A stretch of DNA of 53,504 nt from Candidatus Zixiibacteriota bacterium (GTDB lineage: Bacteria > Zixibacteria > MSB-5A5 > GN15 > PGXB01), in contig JAPLUR010000058.1 in NCBI GenBank assembly GCA_026397505.1, positions 1 to 53,504 on the forward strand, in the 5' to 3' direction. The translations under genes and the position numbers were made by a program. Position 1 is the first letter of the stretch; each line of letters starts with the position of its first letter. The notes under the pieces were generated by a model, which had not been told where the DNA came from, made no database searches, and worked only from the letters and a program-made list of their open reading frames with translations. Positions 15,251-27,180 of this stretch are shown here, one piece after another.

Positions 15251-16402
15251 ATGAAATTCGAGTTTGATTATAATTTCAAAGGGATTCTCTCGGTTCCCGC
15301 CCGGGCGCTGCGCGCCAAAAAAATTATCGCCGCATCATTTTATCTCCTGCTGGCTTTCCTGATTTTCAACATCTTCGGCTATCTGGCGCTGCTGCTTGAT
15401 GGGGCCGCTCTGTCTCATATCTTCTCCACCCACGGATTGATTCCATTCTGTCCCATCCCCTTTGACTCCATCATCGCATCAATACTGTTCTATTTTGGCG
15501 TCGGTCTTTCCATTTTATCAGTCATGGCCGGCATGATGGCGATCGCGGGATTCGACTTCGAGGAGATGCGCGGCAATCCCTTTTTCTCAACCAAGGCCGG
15601 CCTCAAATTCAGTTTCAGACGGCTGAAACAGTTGCTTCTGTCGGAACTGGCCATAATCGCCTTTGTCGCTTTCATAATTCTTCTGGGAATAATCGTCGGC
15701 CTCATAACCAGAATACCATATCTGGGTGAATGGCTTTACAGCCTCTTTTTCTTTTTCCCCAATTTTGTGATTGGGTTATTCACAGTCTTGATCCTTTTCG
15801 TTCTTTCCTGCTCGGTCTTGGTCATGCCGGCGGCGGTGATGGCCGACCGCAATGGCGAAAGTTTCAACTCTATTCTGGAAACCTTTTCGACCGTCCTCCG
15901 CCGGCCGCTGCATTGGGTCGGCTATGCCCTGTACTCGGTCGTGGCCGCCAAGGTGGCCGGTTTTATATTCGCCTATTTTGCTTTCCGCGCTGTGCAATTC
16001 CTGAAGATAATTACCTCTTTGGGCGGCGGTGAGAAAATCGGCAATATTGTTTCCTCCGGCATGAGCCATCTTCCACTCGACAGCCGGATTGTCGCTTTCA
16101 CCACCAATCTTTTCCCCGGCATCCCTTTCAGTTTCGACCTTTCCACTTTATGCAGTGGAAACGACATTGGCTCGGCGGGGTATCTCATGGCTATTGCCCT
16201 GTTTCTGATATTTCTGGCTATCTGGGGATATATGATATCGGTTATTGCCACCGGCCAGGCCTATGCTTTCGCCATAATTAAAAAGATCCGTGATGGACAC
16301 GCGATAACGGATGAGAAATCTCTCTTTTATGAAGAGGAGTGGGTCAACCCGCCGATTATCGACGACAAAGGCACCTCCGAAAGCAACGACATTTCCACAT
16401 AA
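15251..16402 (+). CDS. Polytopic membrane protein of unknown function
   Basis: 383 residues with about six hydrophobic segments: roughly residues 23-47, 72-98, 126-150, 165-195, 217-245 and 310-345. The N-terminus is soluble (FEFDYNFKGILSVPARALRAKK). Acidic and polar residues dominate the last 40. I recognise no catalytic motif or family. The ATG follows CCGGGG. It may be co-transcribed with the propeller gene before it. Confidence 0.7.
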   Translation: MKFEFDYNFKGILSVPARALRAKKIIAASFYLLLAFLIFNIFGYLALLLDGAALSHIFSTHGLIPFCPIPFDSIIASILFYFGVGLSILSVMAGMMAIAGFDFEEMRGNPFFSTKAGLKFSFRRLKQLLLSELAIIAFVAFIILLGIIVGLITRIPYLGEWLYSLFFFFPNFVIGLFTVLILFVLSCSVLVMPAAVMADRNGESFNSILETFSTVLRRPLHWVGYALYSVVAAKVAGFIFAYFAFRAVQFLKIITSLGGGEKIGNIVSSGMSHLPLDSRIVAFTTNLFPGIPFSFDLSTLCSGNDIGSAGYLMAIALFLIFLAIWGYMISVIATGQAYAFAIIKKIRDGHAITDEKSLFYEEEWVNPPIIDDKGTSESNDIST

Positions 16403-16672
16403 TCCTGATAAATCAATCTTTTAGGCTGACTGAGCAGTGCACACATCGCTTTTACACGCGGCGTCAGGAACCCCTTCCTGACGCGATCTTTGTAGTTGTA
16501 GCGCAAAATCTGGAAGGGTTTTGCGAGACGAGATTTCGCACCATACTCTGTTGCGTCATGTCCTAAATTCCGCGCCAGTGGAAGCGAGACCTGACGCCTG
16601 CAAAGCATCTTGACAAATTTCCTTTTAAAACATTAAAACTTCTAGCGGAAGATGAATTAGGCCAATTTGATC
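16403..16672. other. Intergenic stretch upstream of the accessory module
   Basis: No convincing gene. It holds a perfect inverted repeat at 16461-16484, listed separately. From about 16600 the sequence becomes AT-rich, matching the accessory genes that follow. Confidence 0.5.
16461..16484. repeat. Perfect 10-bp inverted repeat (hairpin)
   Basis: GCGTCAGGAA (16461-16470) and TTCCTGACGC (16475-16484) flank a CCCC loop. Neither side has a T run, so it is a poor terminator. It could be a dispersed palindromic element. Related words (TGACGCAACA on the minus strand, CTGACGCC at about 16590) lie around it. Confidence 0.6.
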
Positions 16673-16701
16673 TTGACATTATGATTAGAGTTGATTAGGA
16701 T
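16673..16701 (+). promoter_or_regulatory. Probable promoter of the cysteine-peptidase-fold/HD module
   Basis: TTGACA (16673-16678, full consensus), a 17-base spacer and TAGGAT (16696-16701, 4 of 6). It lies about 85 bases before the Lys-rich start at 16786. A second TTGACA at 16719-16724 has no good -10 element. Confidence 0.45.
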
Positions 16702-16785
16702 AAAGGTGTTGGCAATTTTTGACATAAGATAATACTGTATTGATGTGTCGAAAGAAGCATTAAACTAGAAATGAAAGGAGATAAA

Positions 16786-16863
16786 ATGCCTGCAAAAAAG
16801 ACGGCAAAGAAGAAAACAGCCAAGAAGCCAGCAAAGAAAATTGGTGGATTTGGGCTTGCATGA
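16786..16863 (+). CDS. Lys/Ala-rich leader, out of frame with the following gene
   Basis: ATG 16786 has the best ribosome binding site of the region (AAAGGAG, 16774-16780, five bases away). It encodes 25 residues, beginning MPAKKTAKKKTAKKPAKK, like a histone-H1 or nucleic-acid-binding tail. The frame ends at TGA 16861-16863. It overlaps the next frame by 23 bases, and that frame lacks both an ATG and a ribosome binding site before its catalytic Cys. Removing one A from the AAAA run at 16837-16840 would fuse the tail to the peptidase-like protein. It is therefore either the true N-terminus split by a sequence error or recent mutation, a +1 frameshift leader, or a separate short peptide. Confidence 0.55.
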   Translation: MPAKKTAKKKTAKKPAKKIGGFGLA

Positions 16864-17416
16864 TTATCTGCCATTAAGACAAAACATCCGATCAGATAAT
16901 TGTGGCGTCTACTCTTTCGGGATGATGCTCACGTTATTGGGTTTGCCTACATCTAAGTGGCTTGCAAATCATTTGTTTCAAAGCATAGATCATTATGCAA
17001 CCTTGAAAGGTATTACATCGTATGCTTTGGCTCGTGCCGTCGCTAAGGTCACCGGAGTGTCTGACCTTTTATGGATTCAGATTGGCAGGCCATCCTTCTT
17101 TGAATTGACTGAGATACTGCTGCAACAGGATATATCTTTAAACAAACCCTTTGTTATCGTAATGCGCGCGATTCATAAATCGAAGCATTTGCGTTGTTGG
17201 CATGCTACATTATGCACAGGCTGTAATAAGCGGGCGATCCATCTTCTAGACCCACTAGGCCCAAGGAAGCTTCATCCCGGCTTGTTTAACGTGAAATTAA
17301 CGTCTATCCCCCTTAATAATCGATATTTTGCTGTTGAACCAAGCTGCTATGTTGTAGACAGAAATGCCGGCGTCGACATTCTCGGTCATCTCCCCTTTGC
17401 ACGGACTGATCCATAA
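16841..17416 (+). CDS. Papain/C39-like cysteine-peptidase-fold protein (N-terminus uncertain)
   Basis: 191 residues if read from TTG 16841. A papain-type layout is visible: Gln14 in LRQNIRSD, Cys21 in SDNCGVYSF, His121 in RCWHATLC and Asp137 in IHLLDPLG. That is the Gln-Cys-His-Asp/Asn order of C39 and related transglutaminase-like peptidases. No ABC exporter or bacteriocin precursor is adjacent, so a leader-peptidase role is not supported. Codons are AT-richer than in the neighbours, suggesting transfer. The stop shares one base with the next start (TAATG), so it is tightly coupled to the HD protein. The substrate is unknown, and an inactive binding fold is also possible. Confidence 0.6.
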   Translation: MVDLGLHDYLPLRQNIRSDNCGVYSFGMMLTLLGLPTSKWLANHLFQSIDHYATLKGITSYALARAVAKVTGVSDLLWIQIGRPSFFELTEILLQQDISLNKPFVIVMRAIHKSKHLRCWHATLCTGCNKRAIHLLDPLGPRKLHPGLFNVKLTSIPLNNRYFAVEPSCYVVDRNAGVDILGHLPFARTDP

Positions 17417-18816
17417 TGGCCACAGTAGTTGAAGCACTATTTGCTCTAACATATCGGGGAAAAGAGTTTCACCATTACCACAATAAAATAGAGGACTATA
17501 AGACCAAATTGTCCAATTTCCTCGAGGCCAGAATGGATGAAGTCCGTCAATACAAAGCAACGGACTTTGCCCGTGAAATATTACAGATTATTGACCTAGA
17601 AGATTGTGACTATCTCCGCACGGGCGTAATTAAACGGGAAATAGGCGGGATGATTGCTTACCCGCGGCAACGAGATCACGGCAGCCATACCCTGTACAAT
17701 TGGTTACTCGGATGGTACTTTTATACTCATTCAAGTGAAATTCGCGGTGAAATAAGAAACGCAATTGAATTACGCAAGTGGAAATCTTCCATTATCTCGT
17801 CTGATATCTTCTTCGGGCATGTTTGGCAATACGTTAGTCTTCTACATGATGTGGGCTACATATTTGAGGGTTCATTATCTGCCATGAACCCAGCAGTTTA
17901 TAATGAACAAGTTGGATTGGGTATTGAGATAGTTGCTGATTACTTGAATAGCCGATTTTGGTATGGCTCCGGAATAGTCTCATCTCATGATCGGGAATTG
18001 ATACAGGAAGAATTGAAAGTAAGAAATCCTCAATTGAACAAAATGATGTCTCTAGCGCAAACTGCGGATGCCCTGCGGAACCTTGGTGATTTATCAGAAT
18101 TGACTAATGGGTTATTCAAACAACTTGAAAGAAGAAATAGTAATATATTGAATTTCAAAAAGTACGAAAGTAGGTCATTACCCGGTGATGCTTTTCAATT
18201 GTGGCAAACTCATTTTGAAATCTTCGGCTTTAAGAAAGCCAAAGTTATTATAGATGAGTTAGATGAGAAATTCCGCGAATTGTACTTACGTGGGACTCTC
18301 TCTGATGGTCAGAGAATATTGGACCACGGTGTATGTAGCGGATTGTTACTTCTATTAATAGCAACTCATTATTATCGTATCCTTTATGCTGCCAAGAAAA
18401 ATCGGGGAACATCGCAGCATGCGGAAGTTCTTACAAGTTTCATTGATCGTATAACCCGATATAAATACGATGCACAATTTTGGTGGTGCGGGATTGTATG
18501 GGGAACTGGCGCATCAGCTATGCACAGTCTGATTCAGTTAGGCATCTGTGGAAATCAAGCCGGACACAGACTCCGGCTCACAGACGAGCCGCTGACTTTT
18601 CTTGGAATTTTGGTCGATTGTCTTCAGGAGTGGGACCGCTATAGCGTCTTCCCCATTCCTGGGGCTGACACGCTTCAAGCAACTGACGTTCAATTAGTAA
18701 GGCGATCTGGCAAGATTGTATTAAAATATGGCAACAAAGATCGATCTATCAAAGTTACAAAAGCGCTTGATAAATGTCTTGCTGGCTGGAGAAATTTAGT
18801 TGTGATCGAGGCGTAG
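17416..18816 (+). CDS. HD-domain protein of unknown function (accessory module)
   Basis: 466 residues. HD-type metal-binding residues can be placed as His88/His91 (RDHGSHTLYNW), His144-Asp145 (LLHDVGY), possibly His304 (LDHGVCSG), and Asp401 (LVDCLQEWDR). This gives the H...HD...D order of metal-dependent phosphohydrolases, with a large insert at about residues 155-300. Such domains cleave nucleotides, cyclic nucleotides or phosphoesters; the substrate here is unknown. It starts on the last base of the peptidase-like gene's stop. AT-rich codons (TTA, AAT, ATA) contrast with flanking genes. No transmembrane segment is obvious. A defence or stress role is only a hypothesis. Confidence 0.6.
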   Translation: MATVVEALFALTYRGKEFHHYHNKIEDYKTKLSNFLEARMDEVRQYKATDFAREILQIIDLEDCDYLRTGVIKREIGGMIAYPRQRDHGSHTLYNWLLGWYFYTHSSEIRGEIRNAIELRKWKSSIISSDIFFGHVWQYVSLLHDVGYIFEGSLSAMNPAVYNEQVGLGIEIVADYLNSRFWYGSGIVSSHDRELIQEELKVRNPQLNKMMSLAQTADALRNLGDLSELTNGLFKQLERRNSNILNFKKYESRSLPGDAFQLWQTHFEIFGFKKAKVIIDELDEKFRELYLRGTLSDGQRILDHGVCSGLLLLLIATHYYRILYAAKKNRGTSQHAEVLTSFIDRITRYKYDAQFWWCGIVWGTGASAMHSLIQLGICGNQAGHRLRLTDEPLTFLGILVDCLQEWDRYSVFPIPGADTLQATDVQLVRRSGKIVLKYGNKDRSIKVTKALDKCLAGWRNLVVIEA

Positions 18817-19060
18817 CGATTAATTTGGAATATTGAGATCGCAACCTTGCAATTTTGACACTTACCATCATCTAAATCCCACCCCTCTTGCAAAATCTGT
18901 ATCGAATCGATGGTGATTTGGGTCCTACCCCCTCAGTAGAAAGCACAGCCATCTATATGTCTAAAGTCAAAAAGCAATTTATCGACTGTCCCAATGTCAA
19001 GAACTGTCACCCGCGTACCCTCTTCCCCAAATTCTCTACAAAAGCACTACAAAAGAATAC

Positions 19061-19080
19061 AAAAACGAAGAAACGAACTT
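19061..19080 (+). repeat. Dispersed motif AAAACGAAGAAACGAAC, copy A
   Basis: Nearly identical to 19228-19245 on the same strand and to reverse-strand copies near 27150-27178 and 27051-27075. All four lie in non-coding DNA. Confidence 0.5.
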
Positions 19081-19220
19081 CCCCCACCCCACTTGTTTCA
19101 CCTAACCTCTTGTCCTGCAAGCAACATGCCCGTTACGTGCGCGAAAGACTTCAGTCTGCCCGTTTTCTCCTTTACTGCCCCGGCCACACCGTATCCCGGC
19201 CAGCCCGGCATCCCGTACAT

Positions 19221-19247
19221 TTTAAAAAACGAAGAAACAAACCCAAT
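19221..19247 (+). repeat. Dispersed motif AAAACGAAGAAACAAACCCAATT, copy B
   Basis: Preceded by TTTTAAA and followed by a GTCAGCCGGGCC segment. It resembles copy A (19061-19080) and, on the other strand, the copy at 27150-27178, which also begins with a TTTAAAAACG run. Confidence 0.5.
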
Positions 19248-19338
19248 TCGTCAGCCGGGCCTTTTTCGCCTAATCCCTTGTTATTCATTATAGTGCCAGA
19301 AAACACTGTCGGATTTCTCAATAACTTGATTAAATGCC

Positions 19339-19378
19339 CCGAATTTATCATATTCCCGAAAATATTTGATAATTTCGG
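19339..19378 (+). promoter_or_regulatory. Long hairpin covering the rubredoxin ribosome binding site
   Basis: CCGAATTTATCA (19339-19350) pairs with TGATAATTTCGG (19367-19378) at 11 of 12 positions. TATT/AATA can extend the pairing inside. The right arm includes the GG of the GGAG (19377-19380) that serves the rubredoxin ATG at 19390. In RNA this could mask the ribosome binding site. The arms are AT-rich, so opening by temperature or a factor is possible. Confidence 0.5.
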
Positions 19379-19389
19379 AGACGGCTATT

Positions 19390-19554
19390 ATGCCCAAATG
19401 GGAATGTGAAGTTTGCGGATATGTTTATGACCCAGCCAAAGGCGACCCCCAGGGAGGCGCCGAGCCGGGAACTCTGTTTGAGAATTTACCCCATGAATGG
19501 GTCTGCCCGGTTTGTGGAGCTGATAAGGACCAGTTCCATCCGCTCAAATTCTGA
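19390..19554 (+). CDS. Rubredoxin
   Basis: 54 residues, typical rubredoxin length. The two iron-binding knuckles CEVCGY and CPVCGA hold the four Cys ligands. [14 protein letters not shown] is the conserved linker. It is a small cytoplasmic electron carrier, often serving oxygen or peroxide detoxification in anaerobes and microaerophiles. The start at 19390 has GGAG nine bases upstream; the frame extends to a TTG at 19366, but the fold needs only the shorter form. It stands alone with no redox partner adjacent. It may be controlled by the hairpin just upstream. Confidence 0.95.
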
Positions 19555-19634
19555 GTGTCACATTATCATCGAAAATGTTGAAATGGGAATCGCCCGTTTG
19601 CATTATGGAGCAGAAAAATATTGACTGTTTCATC

Positions 19635-19682
19635 GCGTCAAGAAAACAGGCGGAGGCTGTCTCACGTTTTTTCCTCCGCCTG
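19635..19682 (-). terminator. Terminator of the dockerin-protein gene
   Basis: CAGGCGGAGG (19647-19656) and CCTCCGCCTG (19673-19682) form a 10-bp stem with a 16-base loop. On the minus strand TTTTCTT follows the stem. It lies 21 bases past the minus-strand stop at 19703. Confidence 0.65.
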
Positions 19683-19702
19683 CCTTCTCATCGGCATTCC
19701 CT

Positions 19703-27143: not shown

Positions 27144-27180
27144 AGTCGGCAAAATGGGTTCGTTTCCCCGTTTTTAAAGG
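27144..27180 (-). repeat. Dispersed motif TTTAAAAACGGGGAAACGAACCC, copy C
   Basis: On the minus strand it matches copy B (19221-19247) at most positions, including the leading TTTAAAAA run. Like copy B it is followed by a GC-rich segment. Confidence 0.5.

Follow-up and report, generated by a model that had tools for sequence, protein, structure and literature searches.

An acquired-looking gene pair encoding a divergent HD-superfamily protein and a possible C39-like neighbour in a Candidatus Zixiibacteriota genome

What are the two overlapping, AT-rich genes that stand among housekeeping genes in a genome of Candidatus Zixiibacteriota, and do they work together, perhaps against phages? The window that we analysed, a stretch of 53,504 nucleotides, is one contig of a 3.4-Mb genome in 147 contigs. 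A preliminary description, made from the letters alone, had read the pair as an unrecognised and transferred module of a papain/C39-like protein and an HD-domain protein, with a possible stress or anti-phage function. Its observations were confirmed in part, the start of the first gene being the exception, and its interpretation was partly supported. Our preferred reading, to which we give about an even chance, is that gene 2 encodes an acquired HD phosphohydrolase, which may be a defence effector, and that gene 1 is an unproven partner of protease-like character. The features concerned are the following:

16461-16484, + strand: terminator-like hairpin of 10 pairs, downstream of the preceding gene and ahead of the pair (pattern match only)
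16673-16701, + strand: sigma-70-like promoter candidate, TTGACA-N17-TAGGAT (10/12 matches)
16786-16863, + strand: short open reading frame of 25 codons, Lys/Ala-rich, with a good Shine-Dalgarno sequence, in a frame different from that of gene 1
16841-17416, + strand: gene 1, orphan C39/papain-like candidate, 191 aa from TTG, with Q14, C21, H121 and D137
17416-18816, + strand: gene 2, divergent HD-superfamily protein, 466 aa, with H88/H91, H144-D145, H304, H370, D401 and LQEWDR

Gene 2 was found at 17416-18816 as described, together with the HD residues noted in it. The conserved H...HD...D candidate metal ligands by which the HD superfamily is recognised are present in gene 2 and do not vary among the 14-15 homologues with coverage there; in the 15-homologue alignment, H88, H91, H144, D145, H304, H370, D401, Q404, W406, D407 and R408 were identical in all covering rows. 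While gene 2 itself reached no HD profile in Pfam, three homologues (L034, L035 and L015) matched PF01966 weakly over the HD motif, with E values of 0.006, 0.028 and 0.15, all below the curated cut-off. The AlphaFold2 model of gene 2 was mostly helical (pLDDT 81.7, pTM 0.89). Foldseek returned no match for it at E ≤ 0.001 and none among viral models, and no meaningful match was found among PDB sequences. VIA-align, in turn, placed enzymes that are HD-type by name in all 50 alignments listed (Z 9.3 to 7.7), the best of those listed being to PDE8A (Z 9.3, 227 residues, 4.9 Å), with H. pylori PPX/GppA (Z 9.0, 161 residues, 3.5 Å), PDE5, PDE4, PDE2 and a tRNA-processing enzyme also among the rows, although the aligner warns that a Z of about 9 can reflect a common arrangement in helical proteins. 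Given the invariant ligand candidates, the structural alignments to HD enzymes and the weak Pfam HD matches of the homologues, assignment of gene 2 to the HD superfamily is well supported, if not formally proven.

No Pfam, NCBIfam, PHROGs or PADLOC family covered either protein at a meaningful score, and no model of the 2023 PADLOC-DB matched either at E ≤ 10, so that the pair was rightly called unrecognised. Judged by sequence, gene 2 belongs to a divergent, unnamed HD family of about 440-840 aa with the signature DHxxH, LLHDxGY, (D/N)H near 304 and LxDxxQxWDR; we found nothing specific in the literature on this family or on its pairing with gene 1. The protein would be a mostly helical HD enzyme in which the set of candidate metal ligands, H..HD..H..H..D, is complete, and family knowledge predicts that it hydrolyses phosphoesters of nucleotides, whether (d)NTPs, cyclic nucleotides or oligonucleotides. 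In an 838-aa homologue (L035, 7098-9614) the C-terminus looks HTH-like (PF25212, E 3e-6, narrowly short of the cut-off), and an HD-C39 fusion considered for this protein was therefore rejected. A very distant relative (L021, 79-3306) carries a fused GAF domain; a NUDIX gene overlaps it, and the gene after the NUDIX gene by eye resembles HAD-type phosphatases.

The layout of the locus would suit a joint arrival of the two genes. They share one base, the TAA at 17414-17416 overlapping the ATG at 17416-17418, and with GC contents of 43.9% and 41.5% they are the lowest two of the 38 genes in the window (median 51.0%). Nine other genomes of the family have matches to the gene upstream of the pair (15251-16402). 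In four of the six relatives with fetched flanks (L054, L056, L057 and L058) an SSS symporter comes next after its homologue, no more than about 130 bases away; the best matches of this symporter in the present genome are only about 25-28% identical. Given that relatives carry the symporter at this position and this genome has only such distant matches, the pair appears to stand at a lineage-specific breakpoint, which fits acquisition, though the first event could have been a rearrangement or the loss of the symporter. Low GC and broken synteny thus favour the earlier suggestion of transfer, and the pair looks like a laterally acquired, AT-rich transcription unit. A promoter of its own had also been proposed for it: the TTGACA-17-TAGGAT sequence is indeed present at 16673-16701, but such sites are no commoner in the region than in shuffled sequence (8 found, 7.0 expected). 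The region 16300-19700 had no Rfam match at E ≤ 0.1, the window contained no tRNA, and no clear terminal repeats flanked the pair. Separately, an 18-base motif, AAAAACGAAGAAACRAAC, occurs in three copies with up to 2 mismatches in the window (19061-19078, 19225-19242 and 27158-27175), compared to 0.11 occurrences expected by chance.

Gene 1 was the harder case. Its start had been placed at ATG16786, but this ATG, which has a good Shine-Dalgarno sequence, opens a different frame from the C39-like one and encodes MPAKKTAKKKTAKKPAKKIGGFGLA, with a stop codon at 16861-16863. The earliest start codon in the C39-like frame is the TTG at 16841, and no ATG lies in that frame upstream of the candidate catalytic Cys. 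Therefore, either gene 1 starts at a TTG or GTG codon, possibly in coupling with the short open reading frame, or it carries a frameshift. The frame is probably coding, given that its stop-free stretch of 213 codons is longer than any in 300 base-shuffled versions of the region (at most 193); its amino-acid coding score was weak (0.036 bits/aa, compared to a mean of 0.15 for other genes).

That gene 1 is C39-like is no more than a reasonable guess from its sequence. Numbered from TTG16841, Q14, C21, H121 and D137 stand in C39 order. The papain/C39 assignment draws on this order and on a marginal score; neither profiles nor structure could demonstrate it. Against a C39_2 profile for which 7 of the 9 domains found were kept (two partial or atypical ones were removed by hand), hmmsearch gave 4.8 bits, a score equalled by 2 of 2000 shuffles, whereas hhalign gave a score no better than shuffles (15 of 100 equalled it), and the two comparisons thus disagree. 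Gene 1 matched no Pfam profile, including PF13529 and other Pfam peptidase models, and a PF13529 search of its own genome and a PDB search returned nothing for it. Its single-sequence structure model was useless (pLDDT 35). After inspecting gene 1 we wrote a regular expression for the C39 motif; it matched 101 of 200,000 shuffles but missed six of seven true C39_2 domains and was therefore dropped as evidence. None of 132 genomes of the phylum contained a homologue of gene 1 (two matches, at E 0.008 and 0.009, were at chance level), and none was present in the plasmids, phages and IMG/VR sequences searched.

If the two genes formed a recurring module, relatives of gene 1 should accompany gene 2 homologues elsewhere. 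No gene 1 relative lay near any HD homologue in our small sample: compared with all open frames of 18 HD loci (by phmmer for the first ten), gene 1 reached a best E value of 1.2. Whole-genome searches of 11 HD-bearing genomes returned no convincing relative either, only matches at E 0.03-0.06, two of three interrupted by stop codons. The module, as a unit that recurs, was therefore not borne out. The preliminary description had named homologues that never co-occur as an outcome that would speak against it, and our results go part of the way there; given that gene 1 has no homologue anywhere searched, this is weak evidence about function.

These results bear on an alternative that we regard as quite possible, at somewhat less than an even chance: gene 2 would be a stand-alone enzyme, as it is in its relatives, and gene 1 an unrelated or decaying orphan that lies upstream by chance. 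HD homologues without a gene 1 relative nearby or elsewhere in the genome are what this explanation predicts, and the lack of any detected gene 1 homologue and of an ATG with a Shine-Dalgarno sequence opening the gene 1 frame agrees with it. However, the one-base overlap and the window's lowest GC are common to both genes, as in a co-acquired operon, and the gene 1 frame stays free of stops for longer than shuffles do. Under our preferred reading of an acquired HD phosphohydrolase with a possible partner, gene 1 may encode a small thiol hydrolase of the C39-like kind that is co-translated with gene 2, and, if a partner at all, might most plausibly regulate or process the HD protein. Were that partnership real, a thiol hydrolase would be linked to an HD effector.

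Whether gene 2 acts in defence was approached through its distribution and neighbours. Relatives occurred in 4 of 129 genomes of the phylum, this genome included and one of the relatives being very distant; one homologue was found in a Candidatus Zixiibacteriota MAG of the same order. Elsewhere, homologues were rare and scattered (Methylococcales, Desulfotomaculia and a proteobacterial MAG), and no HD relative was confirmed in IMG/VR. A complete defence system adjoined the HD gene in two of nine well-flanked loci: HamA and HamB, a complete Hachiman system, at L008, and PtuA and PtuB, a complete Septu system, with a TmtA-like protein at L036. The PtuA-like ATPase at a third locus, L033, was recognised by a model to which many ATPases respond. 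The controls were 12 of the 17 stretches listed from genomes with HD homologues and comprised 118 proteins; mostly single matches occurred in them, several to models with housekeeping relatives, and we saw no complete system. HD loci and controls were scanned at the same E ≤ 1e-30, with output that does not indicate which member was matched. Given this and the small sample, the association of the HD family with defence (2/9 compared to 0/12) is suggestive only and not statistically decisive. A Pfam scan of the genes flanking the pair in this window recognised no defence genes.

The locus beside Hachiman also holds a 571-aa C39-like gene (L008, 7462-9177, - strand), convergent to the HD gene and adjoining HamAB, with a PF13529 match below the cut-off (E 0.013); single-sequence hhalign found no similarity between its product and gene 1. 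Relatives of this protein are found on four plasmids (loci L040-L043), where they adjoin a caspase-family gene and DEAD/DEAH helicase, a TrlF-family ATPase and, twice, multiubiquitin/ThiF genes, which makes this C39-like family a candidate defence-associated family.

The proposed defence role thus drew indirect support from the relatives of gene 2 and none from gene 1. Given the sporadic distribution of the HD enzyme and the two homologues beside known anti-phage systems, such a role for gene 2 or the pair is plausible if speculative, and the rare, scattered distribution and the neighbours in other genomes suggest that gene 2 would most likely act in conflict, as a nucleotide-depleting or signal-degrading effector. 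The same considerations bear on a second alternative, in which gene 2 serves housekeeping or signalling, as a phosphodiesterase or nucleotidase of the cyclic-nucleotide or (p)ppGpp type. Its closest folds are indeed cyclic-nucleotide phosphodiesterases and PPX/GppA, and the very distant relative, with its fused GAF domain and the NUDIX gene after it, points the same way, but the patchy distribution in the phylum and order searched, the low GC and the complete defence systems adjoining two homologues argue against this explanation, which we consider unlikely. Scattered across distant bacteria and sometimes found beside defence systems, the unnamed HD family is a concrete candidate for phage assays.

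An HD enzyme with a partner gene can form an anti-phage system, as in Clover, where the partner restrains the dNTPase (PMC12265719). The pair could by analogy be a toxin-antitoxin or Clover-like unit, in which an HD nucleotidase is toxic unless restrained by gene 1, and the overlapping gene order would suit such a unit; we consider this improbable, given that no profile likens gene 1 to a nucleotidyltransferase, the kind of partner found in Clover, and that HD homologues are present without any gene 1 relative. It is a long shot that the pair forms a new anti-phage unit whose HD nucleotidase effector is licensed or restrained by a C39-like protease; in that case, the C39-like gene that accompanies an HD homologue and Hachiman at L008 would be a different partner of the same kind.

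Compared with known systems, gene 2 has the H..HD..D core and, by its model, a helical fold as in the HD superfamily (PF01966; class I phosphodiesterases; the C-terminal HD domain of PPX/GppA), to which the weak profile matches of three relatives and the model alignments also point. It differs in that it and its relatives fall below every curated cut-off, share a conserved LQxWDR and belong to no named family, and its model has an additional helical portion at the N-terminus and a small alpha-beta portion at the C-terminus. Gene 1 shares with C39-like peptidases (PF13529, PF03412) the order of Gln, Cys, His and Asp, but has no profile match or detected homologue, and no bacteriocin or exporter gene was recognised among the flanking genes scanned here. 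The anti-phage dNTPases Clover CloA and Sp-dGTPase (PMC12265719) are HD-type enzymes, and CloA is encoded with a partner gene, as gene 2 may be; in contrast, gene 2 has no PADLOC model match or meaningful PDB sequence match, and gene 1, compared through profiles, is not recognisable as a CloB-type nucleotidyltransferase (no Pfam or PADLOC match). Set against these systems, the most economical description takes gene 2 for an acquired HD phosphohydrolase from a family without a name and leaves the relevance of its protease-like neighbour unproven.
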